Under the pieces are notes generated by a model, which worked only from the letters and a program-made list of their open reading frames with translations, ran no database searches and was not told the DNA's origin. From Desulfobacterales bacterium (GTDB lineage: Bacteria > Desulfobacterota > Desulfobacteria > Desulfobacterales > Desulfosalsimonadaceae), in the NCBI GenBank assembly GCA_018334855.1, contig JAGXLE010000007.1, positions 1-14,900 of the forward strand: a stretch of DNA of 14,900 nucleotides, in the 5' to 3' direction. Each line of letters starts with the position of its first letter. Position 1 is the first letter of the stretch. Shown piece after piece: positions 3,179-7,520 of the stretch. Position numbers and translations under genes: made by a program.

Positions 3179-3838
3179 TCAATACCGGCGCCTTCCCCTG
3201 GATCTCCCGGATCGGCCCTTGAAAATCCAAAGTGAACGCTTTCTTCCGAATACATTAAGGTGAGCGAGGCGTTTTTCATCCATCAGATCGGGGCGCAGCC
3301 TGATCCAGCTTTTATACACCCCTGAAAGATCGATATCTTTTAGCAGGCCCCGTAAAAAACAAGGTATGCGGGTCAAATCCAGGCCTGACTGAAAATCGAG
3401 CAGATAAGGCCTGCTGTTTTGCGATATCAGGATATTGCGACGGTTGCGGATATCGAGATGCACGATATTGAATCGATGTATCCTTTGGACCAGTTCTTCC
3501 AGCTCATAGAAAAACGAGGTGGGGATTTCGCCTGGCTCTGCCTTGCGCAAAGACTTCCCCTGAATAAACCTGTAGCCCACCGCATATGCATCCAGAAGAA
3601 AAGGTTCGGCCGGGACCCCCTCTATACCCTTGAGTCTGACAAGAATCCTGTATTCACGTCTGGTCATCCACCTGCCCCAGGTTTTTTTCACCATCAGAGG
3701 ACAGGCGGAAAAATCCTTGACCGCCCATTTTTCCCCGTTAATACAGCAGCAGAAAAGCTCGGCATTGGCCCGTCTTCCTTCAGACAAAATCCGGCGGGGC
3801 ATATCTTCAAATATCTGCCTGGTAATCGGCCCGCTCAT
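3179..3838 (-). CDS. Kinase-fold protein, Kdo/LPS-kinase-like, at the lpxK 3' end
   Basis: A 219-residue protein with a minimal eukaryotic-like kinase layout: a candidate ATP lysine in WAVKDF (K41), a Glu in RREY (E62), a catalytic loop HLDIRNRRN at 127-135 (H127, D129, N135, the HxDxxxxN pattern of small-molecule and LPS kinases) and LLDFQ at 146-150 with the metal-binding Asp D148. A classical glycine-rich loop is only weakly suggested (EGRRANA, 20-26). The C-terminus is very basic (199-218), which could help binding to the membrane or anionic lipid. The gene overlaps lpxK by ATGA and is the last of the lipid A operon, so a lipid A, Kdo or core sugar is a likely phosphoacceptor, as for KdkA or WaaP. 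A protein kinase cannot be excluded. Confidence 0.75.
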   Translation of the reverse strand: MSGPITRQIFEDMPRRILSEGRRANAELFCCCINGEKWAVKDFSACPLMVKKTWGRWMTRREYRILVRLKGIEGVPAEPFLLDAYAVGYRFIQGKSLRKAEPGEIPTSFFYELEELVQRIHRFNIVHLDIRNRRNILISQNSRPYLLDFQSGLDLTRIPCFLRGLLKDIDLSGVYKSWIRLRPDLMDEKRLAHLNVFGRKRSLWIFKGRSGRSRGRRRY

Positions 3839-4983
3839 ATCCGGACCTCATTAACATTTCCTGCAAGCTTCCGCCTGACAAAACGGATAAAGCCCTCCTC
3901 CTCTTCTTTATCCTGAAACTCCATGCGCACCCCCACTACTGCAACGGGAATAGAATCCGGCACCCGGCCTGCAATCCGCACGAAATCCTTTTCAGTGGTT
4001 GCCAGCAGATCTGCCGACAGCGCTTTAGCTGTTTTTATAATTTCGTTGAGATCCCTTTCGGTATAAAAATAATGATCCGGAAACTCCTTAAATCCCGCAA
4101 GTGGTCCTGTATGCTTTTCCAGCATATCCCGGAACTCTTCATTGCCCGCGATACCGGAAAAAGCAAAAACCCGCTGCCCGGTCATAAAGGAAAAATCTGC
4201 TGATTCGCCCAGGGCGGAAACAGCCAGTGCCCCGTGATCGCTGCCTTTATATACACCCGCCACGTAAGCAACATGATCTGTGCTAAATACCGGTATATCC
4301 TGGAAAACAGGGATATCAGAATTATCTTTGGGGCTGTTTCTGCTTCGCGTCAGCACTATCGCATCTGCCCGTTTTAGCCCTGAAACCGGCTCCCTTAGCA
4401 TACCCCGGGGCAGCAGATGCCCGTTGCCGAGCCCGCGTTTTGAATCAATGAGAACAAGATCAACGTCCCTGTACAGCCTCAGGTGCTGAAAACCGTCATC
4501 AAGAATCACCATGTCCGGCTCAAATTCGGCCGCCGCACGCATGGCGCTTCTATAGCGGTCTCCCCCCACCAGCACCGGGACTCCCCTGAGGAGGCACGCC
4601 ATCAGTACGGGTTCGTCTCCCGCGGTCTGTGAATCCGTGAATATGCTGTATCCATCGCTTACCACGGCCCCGTCTTTTTCCGCCCTGCCCATGTAGCCGC
4701 GGCTCAGAACCGCCGGCCGGTATCCCATCTGCTGCACGAGAGCTGCCATGTAGACGGTCATGGGCGTCTTTCCGGTACCTCCTGTGGTAATGTTTCCCAC
4801 GGAAATAACAGGACATGGCAAAGTTTTAACCTGCATGATTCCCGCGCGAAAGCAGGCGGTCCGTAGCCGGACCGCCCCGGCGTATATCCGGGATGCCCCG
4901 TAAAGCAGGCCGGGCAGCACCCTTTCCCGGACACCTTCATCTGACTGCATCACCTGCTCAATTTTTTTCCTCAAATATTTCAT
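3835..4983 (-). CDS. lpxK: Tetraacyldisaccharide 4'-kinase
   Basis: LpxK uses ATP to phosphorylate the 4' position of the tetraacyl disaccharide 1-phosphate made by LpxB, giving lipid IVA on the inner leaflet. Evidence: 382 residues (slightly longer than the usual 320-350, with a longer C-terminal end), an N-terminal membrane-associating helix, the P-loop VGNITTGGTGKTPM at 62-75, SRGY at 94-97, GDEP at 122-125, VGGDR at 139-143, the diagnostic DDGFQH at 162-167 and LPRGMLREP further on. Its start lies downstream of a 204-base gap filled by a palindromic element, so it may be less well coupled to lptG than the rest of the operon. Its stop overlaps the following kinase gene as ATGA. Confidence 0.95.
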   Translation of the reverse strand: MKYLRKKIEQVMQSDEGVRERVLPGLLYGASRIYAGAVRLRTACFRAGIMQVKTLPCPVISVGNITTGGTGKTPMTVYMAALVQQMGYRPAVLSRGYMGRAEKDGAVVSDGYSIFTDSQTAGDEPVLMACLLRGVPVLVGGDRYRSAMRAAAEFEPDMVILDDGFQHLRLYRDVDLVLIDSKRGLGNGHLLPRGMLREPVSGLKRADAIVLTRSRNSPKDNSDIPVFQDIPVFSTDHVAYVAGVYKGSDHGALAVSALGESADFSFMTGQRVFAFSGIAGNEEFRDMLEKHTGPLAGFKEFPDHYFYTERDLNEIIKTAKALSADLLATTEKDFVRIAGRVPDSIPVAVVGVRMEFQDKEEEEGFIRFVRRKLAGNVNEVRI

Positions 4984-5004
4984 TTAATCCGCCGGGCATG
5001 GCTA

Positions 5005-5210
5005 TTCAACCTAAATTGAGCGATTTTCAAGTTTGCTGCAGATACAAGGAAGATGCAGACGAGCTATAGTGGACTATGCAAGGCTGCATCTGACGCAGTA
5101 GATGCGGCAGAATTGGAAATCCCGGAGGATTTCAGATTTTTAAAAATAAATGGGTATAATCCTTTACAAAATCATTTTTTAAAAATCTTAAACGCTCAAT
5201 TTAGGTTCAA
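5005..5210. repeat. Palindromic element with terminal inverted repeats and three-way-junction fold
   Basis: Three nested or adjacent stems account for nearly all of the lptG-lpxK gap. P1 is a perfect 15-bp terminal inverted repeat, AACCTAAATTGAGCG at 5008-5022 against 5193-5207, with two more pairs beyond one mismatch (to 5005/5210). P2 starts at the very next base: 5023-5040 pairs with 5103-5120 (17 of 18 counting three U-G wobbles). Inside it, AGATGCAG 5051-5058 pairs with 5084-5091, and ATAGT 5066-5070 with 5073-5077, all nearly collinear. P3 pairs 5130-5146 with 5176-5192 (16 of 17, perfect for 13) and ends directly against P1. Only 9 bases (5121-5129) lie between P2 and P3. The right P1 arm lies in the end of lptG. 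No ORF or transposase is visible. It could be a non-autonomous mobile repeat or a structured RNA; multi-copy status is untested. Confidence 0.75.
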
Positions 5211-6294
5211 GGTTTAACAGCAGCAGGCCCACGCCAAAACCAAACAATATGTTTGCGCTCCATGCCGCCAGCCAGGCCGGCAGCACACCACCGTAACCCA
5301 ACGACAGGCAGAAACTGTAGACCGACCAATAAACAAATGCCGTGACAATGGCATAGGCAAAGCTGGCTGCCATGCCTTCCCCGGCGCTTCCTCTAAGCGC
5401 CAGGCCTGCTCCCATAAGGCTCATGATAAGGCATACCGCCGGAAAAGCGGTTTTGGCATACAGGTCCACCCGGTATTTTGTTGCGTCATACCCCTCGGCT
5501 TCGATTTCTTTAATATATTCCCAGAGGGCGGTAAAACTCATTTCCACTGATTGACGGGCCACCTGTTTGAAATCAGAGGGCTTCAGGTCAATAGAAACCG
5601 CCTTATTATCATAATACCGGGTATGTGCCGCCCTGTCTTGTCCTGCAGTGGCATCCTTGGCGAAGCGCTGCTCCATGCAGTCAGAAAGCACCCACCTGCC
5701 CTGCCTGTACCCGGCAGATTCAGCGTCAAGACGGCGGAGCAGGTTAAAATCCGAATCAAAAAAATAAAGGCTTACCCCACGGAGCACGGCTTCAGAGGGA
5801 TGATAATATTTCACGTTAACGATACTTCCTCTTTGACGTATCCAGATATTTTTTTCCCTGGAAGATACGGCAAGCGCGTCTCCTGTTTTATTCTCCTCTA
5901 TATGCAGGGCCTTGGCAGCACTTATAGGCACAACAACCTCTGAGAAAACAAACAACGCCACCGAAAATATAACCCCCAGCACCGCAACCGGGGCAAGAAG
6001 GTAGAAAACGCTGATACCTCCGCTTTTTAAGGCAATGATCTCGTTGTTTTTGTTCATCAGGCCGAAAATAATCAATACCGCGAGAAGTACGGCAAGAGGC
6101 GTAATCTGGGAAAGGATCTGAGGGATCTTTAACAGAAAATAAAGCACCACTGATCCGGCGGGGCGCCCGGACTCTATAAAATCTTCAATCCTGTCGATAA
6201 AATCGACTGACAGATAGATGCCAACCACCAGGATAAGCACAAAACAGAAGTATTTCAGAAAGGAGGCGGTGATATATCGATGTATAACCGACAT
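5188..6294 (-). CDS. lptG: LPS export permease LptG
   Basis: LptG pairs with LptF in the inner-membrane LptB2FG ABC transporter that extracts LPS and passes it to the periplasmic Lpt bridge. The ATG at 6294 is chosen although the frame stays open further upstream: it gives MSVIHRYITASFLKYF, a normal family N-terminus, and a 368-residue protein, while the extension is polar, unlike the family, and overlaps lptF. GGGAGG at 6308-6313 is the nearest Shine-Dalgarno, 13 bases away. Transmembrane helices lie at about 12-30, 50-80 and 97-119, with three or so more at the C-terminus. The coupling motif NKNNEIIALKSGGIS at 81-95 matches LptF's equivalent, and the middle is the periplasmic jellyroll domain. 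The last residues (LEPKLSV) and the stop are encoded by the arm of the adjacent palindromic element. Confidence 0.9.
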   Translation of the reverse strand: MSVIHRYITASFLKYFCFVLILVVGIYLSVDFIDRIEDFIESGRPAGSVVLYFLLKIPQILSQITPLAVLLAVLIIFGLMNKNNEIIALKSGGISVFYLLAPVAVLGVIFSVALFVFSEVVVPISAAKALHIEENKTGDALAVSSREKNIWIRQRGSIVNVKYYHPSEAVLRGVSLYFFDSDFNLLRRLDAESAGYRQGRWVLSDCMEQRFAKDATAGQDRAAHTRYYDNKAVSIDLKPSDFKQVARQSVEMSFTALWEYIKEIEAEGYDATKYRVDLYAKTAFPAVCLIMSLMGAGLALRGSAGEGMAASFAYAIVTAFVYWSVYSFCLSLGYGGVLPAWLAAWSANILFGFGVGLLLLNLEPKLSV

Positions 6295-6302
6295 GATACT
6301 GT

Positions 6303-7520
6303 TTATTCCTCCCGGCCGCCTTGAGAGTCCTGATTGCCGGCATTGCCGCCTCGCAGAAATTTCTGAAGCATGCGCGCTGCTTTGTAAATTCCCTGCAAGG
6401 GTGCTGCCGGACTGTCGTTTGCCGCTTTTATAAACAGATAGATTCCCAGGCCTCCCATGATAACATTCGGAGCCCATAGCAGCGGTGCCGGGGGATACAT
6501 GAATGATTCGCCGACTACCATGCCGCCTGACAACAGCAGGTAATACAGAAGAAAGCAAAAAAGACCGATTCCGAGCCCTGCCGATTTTCTTGCTGAAACG
6601 TTTTGTATGCCTAATGGCATGGCCAGTATTGCCAGAGCTATGCAGGCAAAAGGAATGGAAAATTTCCTGTGAAACTCGGAAAGGATGGAATAATATCTTT
6701 TTCCCCCGGGCTCTGCGCTCTTGAGGTACCGCTGCATTTCCGCAAGCCCCATTTCCTCTTCATCCCTGCTGCGCGACTCGCCCCCGGCCCCGGCCCTTTT
6801 CGGATCCAGCCTGATATCATAGGTATCAAACCGGATGGCGTCTGCAGACTGTCCTGCGGGGTCCACCTTGCTGACAACCCCGTCATATAGCCTGATGACA
6901 AATGTATAGGGATCTTCGCCCCTGAAAATAGATCCTTCAGGCGCTACCACTGTGCTGCCGGGCCCCTCTTTGCGGCTGTCTTCTATGAACACGCCGTACA
7001 TCCTGCGGCTTTGCATGTCAACCTCGTTGACATACATCATGATTCCTTCAAAATTATCTATAAACTGGCGCTCCTTTATTCCCACGCTGAAATTGGACTG
7101 CATCACGTTCATTGAAACCCGCTCGTAAGCGCTTTTCCCCCACGGCATACCATAGGCTGCCATGAAAACTGCTATTAAAAAGCCTGCGACCGCAAACGTC
7201 ATAACCGGAATTATAACGCTGTATAAACTTATTCCGCCGGATTTCAGTGCCACAATTTCATTTTCCGAAGACATGCGCAGAAAGGTCAGAAGTACACTCA
7301 TCATCACGGACATGGGGATAATATAGACAAGAAAATAGGGCATGGAATAAATAATCATCAACAAAAAGGCCAGCAGGCTGACCTGGTAGTTGACGATCAT
7401 ATTTGTGATATCCAAAATCTGGCGCATCAGAAAAACAAACATGAAAAACGCCAGACTCATGAAAAACGGCGGAATCAGTTCACGTAATATAAAGCGGTTG
7501 ACGATCGTATTGATCTTCAT
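6303..7520 (-). CDS. lptF: LPS export permease LptF
   Basis: Second membrane subunit of the LptB2FG LPS extractor. It has 405 residues, somewhat longer than usual because of a polar C-terminal tail (about 366-405). Transmembrane helices lie at about 13-33, 49-79, 101-124, 288-304, 315-331 and 348-365. The cytoplasmic coupling-helix motif SSENEIVALKSGGIS at 84-98, which contacts the LptB ATPase, is intact. Between helices 3 and 4 is the periplasmic jellyroll domain. The start overlaps the msbA stop by ATGA, and lptG begins 8 bases after its stop, so MsbA, LptF and LptG are likely made together. LptB, LptA and LptC are not encoded in the window. Confidence 0.92.
   Translation of the reverse strand: MKINTIVNRFILRELIPPFFMSLAFFMFVFLMRQILDITNMIVNYQVSLLAFLLMIIYSMPYFLVYIIPMSVMMSVLLTFLRMSSENEIVALKSGGISLYSVIIPVMTFAVAGFLIAVFMAAYGMPWGKSAYERVSMNVMQSNFSVGIKERQFIDNFEGIMMYVNEVDMQSRRMYGVFIEDSRKEGPGSTVVAPEGSIFRGEDPYTFVIRLYDGVVSKVDPAGQSADAIRFDTYDIRLDPKRAGAGGESRSRDEEEMGLAEMQRYLKSAEPGGKRYYSILSEFHRKFSIPFACIALAILAMPLGIQNVSARKSAGLGIGLFCFLLYYLLLSGGMVVGESFMYPPAPLLWAPNVIMGGLGIYLFIKAANDSPAAPLQGIYKAARMLQKFLRGGNAGNQDSQGGREE

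Follow-up and report, generated by a model that had tools for sequence, protein, structure and literature searches.

The window analysed here, a stretch of 14,900 nt from a Desulfobacterales contig, carries lptG and lpxK on the minus strand, and a non-coding element of 196 bp lies in the large gap ahead of lpxK, reaching into the end of lptG (Table 1). The borders of the element were set by target duplications and by an alignment of 38 copies, and its plus orientation is defined as the one in which the core hairpin comes first and the second hairpin after it. The inverted repeat, the two hairpins and the linker of nine bases between them that the original prediction had described all lie where it had placed them. 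Its terminal repeat of 15 bp exists as well, but the true length is 13 bp (5010-5022 / 5193-5205), since two bases of the TTCAA duplication, pairing by coincidence, had been counted in; the terminal inverted repeats (TIRs) of the window copy, CCTAAATTGAGCG and its reverse complement, are perfect. In most other TIR-bearing copies the linker reads CCCGGAGGGT or CCCGAAGGGT, counting from the last base of the core, and CCnnnGG is present at the linker in 96 of the 122 copies with a TIR-like start.

Table 1. Features of the element and its flanking genes (positions in the window).
Feature	Position	Strand	Basis or remark
Whole mobile element	5010..5205	+	target duplications, alignment of 38 copies
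Left target site duplication TTCAA, 5 bp	5005..5009	.	
Right target site duplication TTCAA, 5 bp	5206..5210	.	
Left terminal inverted repeat CCTAAATTGAGCG, 13 bp	5010..5022	+	
Right terminal inverted repeat (CGCTCAATTTAGG on the plus strand), 13 bp	5193..5205	-	
Core hairpin, conserved, 100 nt, 36 consensus pairs, internal loop ACAAGGA / TGACGCAGTA, apical ATAGTnnnCTAT	5022..5121	+	
Linker CCGGAGGA	5122..5129	+	
Second hairpin, A+T-rich, loop differing among copies	5130..5192	+	
lptG ORF as listed	5188..6558	-	TIGR04408; N terminus probably over-called, LptG model begins at residue 92
lpxK, downstream of the insertion	3835..4983	-	TIGR00682

Folded as RNA, the plus strand of 4995-5225 reached -79.5 kcal/mol, whereas 200 dinucleotide shuffles gave -48.0 +/- 3.8 (z = -8.3) and none of them was equally stable. 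The three-way junction that had been proposed holds for the consensus of the 38 copies, by which the three arms were drawn, and for the core folded alone (5022-5121), but not for the minimum fold of the window copy, in which the base of the core arm is open and a small third hairpin at 5116-5133 makes the junction four-way. This third hairpin, with its T-run, is terminator-like on the plus strand and directly follows the core. A plus-strand transcript ending there was considered and is not relied on, because the Aminicenantes copies and the CCCGGATTATGCA-ended copies examined have no T-run after the linker. Promoter-like sites were at chance level, with one found and 0.8 expected.

The element has neither an ORF of its own nor a transposase gene, and in the inward direction two frames from the left end stopped within 30 bases and all three did so from the right end. 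The predicted lack of an ORF thus applies to the element itself, but the lptG frame enters it for 18 nt and then stops, and the last six lptG codons, stop included, lie within it. Read inward on the minus strand, 5205-5188 extends lptG by PKLSV and a stop, and the C terminus of LptG in the window is LLLLNLEPKLSV, with PKLSV and the stop coming from the element. The original lptG stop, TAG, is stranded past the element, beyond the TTCAA on its far side; when the element and one duplication are removed and the flanks joined, the sequence reads ...LLLLNLE* and then has 18 nt to the ATG of lpxK. The insertion struck the last two sense codons of lptG; the inverted repeat of the element now encodes a tail of five residues and provides the new stop, and the order of lptG and lpxK was left unaltered.

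A search with LpxK identified 20 loci in 19 relatives, among which the 12 with a good lptG alignment were used, the other eight (L194 and L197-L203) being left out as their lptG alignment was absent or partial. The element was absent between lptG and lpxK in all 12 relatives examined, where the lptG stop lies about 14-151 nt ahead of the lpxK start as aligned (three of the lpxK starts were placed by hand) and the LptG tail is short, such as LLSLE or LLNLE, followed by the stop. One relative (L187, in G008) carries a different inverted repeat, GGATGAACCTGTGTGTTC ... GAACACACAGGTTCATCC, in its 132-nt lptG-lpxK gap.

A structured RNA acting in cis on lpxK, or an attenuator of it, had been one of the original suggestions, and the position upstream of lpxK in a large operon gap agrees with it. 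However, the 12 relatives are empty at this site, copies of the element lie in both orientations, the core on the minus strand, which the operon reads, folds to -28.0 kcal/mol against -44.5 for the plus strand, and the sole terminator-like site is on the other strand, a scan of the operon strand having found none. We therefore regard control of lpxK as extremely improbable. The covariation that had been proposed as a check was positive for the element family, but no fixed position near lpxK accompanied it. At lpxK the element is probably a passenger, as transcription of the operon would cross its less stable strand, and as a guess from the sequence we would expect read-through and little effect on lpxK.

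Copies of the element are numerous. In the draft genome of the host (1.63 Mb in 287 contigs, 62% complete), a 216-base query gave at least 40 matches at E <= 0.001, with 40 of 58 candidates scored and three of the matches being repeat readings of places already counted. Among 39 other genomes of relatives, 17 had matches (18 of 40 counting the host) when at most 20 candidates were scored per genome. An exact 5-bp target duplication flanks 25 of 38 full copies, while random re-pairing of the flanks gave a mean of 1.0 and a maximum of 7 in 2000 trials; the 38 copies are 40 rows minus two double readings, and over the 40 rows the duplication was exact in 26, and matches of 3, 4 and 6 bp were seen in two, three and one of the 40, respectively. 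Within the host genome alone the exact duplication was found in 11 of 15 copies. Target sequences are rich in A+T; among the 26 exact rows, 20 begin with T and 21 end in A.

The element is short, multicopy and dispersed, lacks a transposase gene, ends in terminal inverted repeats of 13 bp flanked by a 5-bp target duplication, and has an empty site in relatives, all of which are features of miniature inverted-repeat transposable elements (MITEs). The multiple copies, the target duplication and the clean empty site, with the element absent in 12 of 12 relatives, identify it as a MITE and not as an RNA specific to lpxK. Of the classes that had been suggested, the MITE-like one is borne out by copies with common ends, the 25 of 38 exact duplications and the clean empty site, and the proposed search for further copies returned many with the same ends. 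The best explanation as a whole, which we hold with considerable confidence, is a copy of a non-autonomous transposable element (MITE), for which we infer an IS1380-type mobiliser and a role of the fold.

The REP-like class, in which a RAYT (Y1) transposase would mobilise a repeat of the REP or BIME type, has in its favour a hairpin repeat that is intergenic and present in many copies, and solo GTAA...TTAC hairpins devoid of a terminal repeat occur elsewhere in the family. REPs are shorter and are not known to have terminal repeats or target duplications, however, and 196 bp is long for a REP; Y1 transposition is not known to make target duplications. As the window copy has both terminal repeats and a 5-bp target duplication, the REP reading is not supported for it, and we consider it hardly credible here.

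Copies are mostly intergenic, in 141 of the 148 used, as judged by crude ORF calls, and their orientation to genes has no clear bias, both neighbours being antisense in 39 and sense in 29 of the 148 (39 of 187 cores had been dropped for lack of flank). Searches of plasmids and phages did not match the element, and a search of plasmids alone did not match a distant variant. Copies of the core hairpin were seen in three IMG/VR contigs labelled viral (L416, L417 and L418), two of which are identical over 9633 bases.

Several known systems resemble the element. The Chunjie MITE of Geobacter uraniireducens (235 bp), as described in the part of PMC10969869 available to us, is likewise short and non-coding, has terminal and direct repeats and lies in an operon; compared by description, it belongs to another host group, and the element studied here is set apart by an inner hairpin that is conserved in two phyla and biased to one strand. 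The Tn3-derived TIMEs (262 bp), in the available part of PMC4133298, can be likened to the element in their 5-6 bp duplications, conserved core stretches and predicted folded transcripts, but they have 38-bp Tn3-type ends and are mostly single copy. Multicopy palindromes of Geobacteraceae are also intergenic and occur in related anaerobes, a likeness drawn by description from the available parts of PMC2700814, PMC2996986 and PMC3543383. REP/BIME sequences share with the element their nature as intergenic hairpin repeats. Insertion sequences (ISs) of the IS1380 family (PF13701, NCBIfam NF033539) resemble it in ends beginning CCT(A/G) and, in a few cases, in 4- or 5-bp duplications; the element differs in lacking a transposase gene, and no autonomous copy with its 13-bp ends was found.

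The IS1380 likeness bears on the question of the mobiliser. At E <= 0.001, PF13701 had matches in 141 of the 389 genomes searched in the order, 106 of them above the curated cut-off. Among 11 ISs whose presumed ends were examined, an exact 4- or 5-bp duplication was found in three, namely L118 (ends CCTGCATTATTCA / CCTGAATAATTCA, 4-bp duplication TTAA), L120 (end CCTAAAAAATGCA, duplication TGTTA) and L122 (end CCTAAAAGTTGCA, duplication TTGAA). The IS at L099, of the IS1380 family and from this order, has the end CCTAAAACAAGCG and a 6-bp match at its flanks. The ends closest to those of the element, CCTAATTGAGCG / CCTAAATGAG, belong to the IS at L140, whose transposase is IS1380 by NCBIfam (7e-61) and which, like the rest of the 11, shows no target duplication. 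The available part of a table in PMC4133298 holds two rows for IS1380, whose values, the header lying outside that part, we take as repeat lengths of 4 and 5 bp.

Searches for an autonomous copy, with a transposase between two CCTAAATTGAGCG ends, found none in the surroundings of TIR matches in 40 stretches or around IS1380 transposases in 40 and 389 genomes, with ends inspected at 47 IS1380 loci. The closest-ended transposase was also searched in the 389 genomes and its 30 loci were scanned for ends, and among the TIR pairs listed, those in G019 and nine other genomes were inspected; long TIR pairs in G019 and G052 had no recognisable transposase inside.

The link to IS1380 is probable rather than demonstrated, and judging from sequence likeness an IS1380-family transposase, acting in trans now or formerly, would recognise the terminal repeats and move the element. 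Alternatively, the same MITE may be mobilised by a transposase of another family that has CCT ends and makes 5-bp duplications, the IS1380 likeness being convergence. This would agree with the absence of PF13701 matches in nine genomes of the genus, with the lack of association between IS1380 and the core hairpin in 389 genomes (42 co-occurrences against 47.5 expected, p = 0.26), and with the lack of a target duplication at L140, the closest-ended IS; the Tn3 family, too, can make 5-bp duplications according to the available part of PMC4133298. On the other hand, the L118 ends match those of the core-bearing Aminicenantes elements at 12 of 13 bases, and the length of the duplication, 4 or 5 bp, tracks CCTG or CCTA ends in both ISs and elements, if in few cases. 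We consider another transposase family rather unlikely.

The core hairpin extends well beyond the copies with the ends of the window copy. A covariance model built from 35 cores had matches at E <= 0.001 in 131 of the 389 genomes searched in the order and, at E <= 1e-4, in 23 of the 395 of a phylum sample, 16 of the latter outside the order, with 10 candidates scored per genome and strict filters in both searches. In the genus g2 the core was present in all eight genomes tested, with 8 to 65 matches each. A degenerate core pattern identified at least 80 loci, and the matches listed fall in Desulfobacterales, Desulfobacteraceae, Desulfobulbales, Desulfobulbaceae, unplaced Deltaproteobacteria and Thermodesulfobacteriota, Desulfosarcina alkanivorans (core copy at L369), and Candidatus Aminicenantes, the last with 10 of the listed loci from seven MAGs. 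In the NCBI taxonomy Aminicenantes belong to the phylum Candidatus Aminicenantota and Desulfobacterales to Thermodesulfobacteriota. The impression, voiced at the outset, that cores resembling ATAGTGGACTAT are found repeatedly in sulfate-reducer genomes was borne out by the searches of relatives, of the order and by pattern.

Rfam 15 gave nothing above the gathering score in the window, and for the element at E <= 5 two microRNA models alone, far below that score; across 16 distant loci it gave a tRNA elsewhere in L287 and nothing else. The family was not described in the titles and abstracts searched, most subscription papers and all supplements being outside that scope, and as far as these literature searches and Rfam 15 extend, it appears to be undescribed.

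The most constant parts of the core are the internal loop (ACAAGGA or GCAAGG against ACnnAGnAGAT) and the apical stem. The terminal repeats vary by group, among CCTAAATTGAGCG, CCTAAATCCTGCA, CCCGGATTATGCA and CCTGGATTATTCA. MAG binning error is possible for single contigs, but the Aminicenantes copies have an end type of their own in common; their core-bearing elements end in CCTGGATTATTCA / CCTGAATTATTCA, with a 4-bp duplication in four of six copies as judged by eye. When 187 distinct cores were sorted by script, 69 had a TIR and a 5-bp duplication, 29 a TIR alone, 71 neither and 18 too little flank, the class of 71 being a mixture of solo hairpins with truncated or diverged copies. Some members of the family are solo hairpins, with for example GTAA...TTAC borders and no terminal repeat. 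In Desulfobacteraceae MAG_Ve_Sed_19, solo cores with no terminal repeat were observed at L308, L310, L311, L327, L354, L358, L364 and L372, bordered by a conserved left flank of about accacctaattGTAA-GCG and by CGC-TTAC on the right, and these may represent the same hairpin mobilised in a different way.

Short derivatives are also present, with 26 forms of 42-148 bp among the loci, 17 of them with an exact 5-bp duplication. One-armed forms retain either the second hairpin (L046, L206 and L209) or the core (L071). In the core-less forms of 103-104 bp in G001 (L095, L204, L207 and L208) the joints coincide with the direct repeat TTTCAA, which makes deletion after insertion likely, although core-less transposition is also possible. 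Since core-less derivatives with target duplications exist, the core may be unneeded for movement. At about 4470-4580 of L095 (G001), a diverged element was noticed, one end of which is CCGAAATCGAGCG and whose hairpin is of another kind, containing CATAGTTCACTATGGC.

How the core changes was followed on a tree of 186 cores, in which changes from Watson-Crick pairs comprised 154 double compensatory changes, 103 single changes to G.U, 43 single changes to A.C, 73 single changes to other mismatches and, in addition, 23 double changes that led to G.U or mismatches. Compensatory changes maintain the 100-nt core hairpin in copies from two phyla. A strand-neutral process is expected to give G.U and A.C equally, because G.U on the plus strand equals A.C on the minus strand, while the single changes were biased 103:43 (p = 7e-7; 72:35 at tips and 31:8 on internal branches). 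Plain transitions had no strand bias, with 220 against 205 in paired columns and 66 against 67 in unpaired ones (raw counts, uncorrected for base composition). Across the 120 elements that had both ends, G.U outnumbered A.C by 71:25 in the core and, in the same direction, by 30:17 in the terminal repeats (p = 0.08). In every distinct core examined the plus strand is the better folding one, by RNA energies in 187 of 187 and by DNA energies in 185 of 187.

The bias argues against a functionless fold, whose arms would be kept alike by template switching during replication and whose strand bias would come from one ancestor. Palindromes can undergo arm-to-arm correction, and the copies are related, so that the G.U shared at positions 6, 13 and 14 counts many times when cells are counted. 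However, template switching restores pairs equally on the two strands and should produce no excess of G.U relative to A.C, events counted on the tree still stood at 103:43 while plain transitions had no strand bias, and the conserved internal loop remains unpaired. We therefore consider a functionless fold somewhat unlikely.

Within genomes, pair states private to one copy kept the pair in 25 cases and broke it in 20, while shared states kept it in 20 and broke it in none (Fisher p = 1.2e-4). This comparison used 92 copies in clusters of four or more, with 45 private and 20 shared states, and many of the 92 were best model matches; when the comparison was restricted to the 28 copies that BLAST or the end pattern had identified, the counts were 4/4 private and 7/0 shared (p = 0.077). 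The core set was drawn from BLAST, the end pattern, the core pattern and the structure model, of which the last two favour intact copies and the structure model tolerates G.U. The fold seems to be under selection while the elements spread. As the shared states keep their pairs and the copies are intergenic with no clear orientation bias, we infer that the role of the fold lies in the spread of the element itself and not in neighbouring genes. Copies with an intact plus-strand fold would then spread better and, on that premise, the fold, as RNA or single-stranded DNA, would take part in the life cycle of the element.

A different source of selection would be the host, if the core hairpin were a useful small RNA or RNA-binding site that was spread by transposition and kept by selection at host level. 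The presence of the core in two phyla, its folding on one strand and the solo cores free of terminal repeats are in line with such a role, but the copies face either way relative to neighbouring genes (both genes antisense in 39 and both sense in 29 of 148), stem-breaking changes occur in single copies (20 of 45 private states), and copy number ranges from 8 to 65 across eight genomes of one genus, which makes host benefit an improbable explanation.

Selection on the element's own spread leads to a tentative reading, to which we give some credence but less than even weight, namely that the element is a transposable structured nucleic acid, one strand of which acts as a conserved RNA or single-stranded DNA, and that only copies keeping the fold leave descendants. 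Such an entity would have its own internal-loop motif, occur with several end types and as solo hairpins, and be distributed in Desulfobacterota and Aminicenantes. If this is true, the folded strand would be an active partner in transposition and not filler between inverted repeats.

For the organism, the large gap ahead of lpxK is accounted for by a passenger absent in the relatives examined, and LptG here bears five extra residues of transposon origin. For the family, the implications may be wider. MITEs are usually seen as two transposase-binding ends with dispensable filler, whereas in this family conservation is highest in the filler, which can be recognised in two phyla although the ends have diverged, and changes in it follow the base pairing of one strand. 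If confirmed, annotators would have a covariance model for a repeat that has no Rfam entry and is present in many sulfate-reducer genomes, and an RNA or single-stranded DNA step would be implicated in the spread of a target-duplicating DNA transposon.
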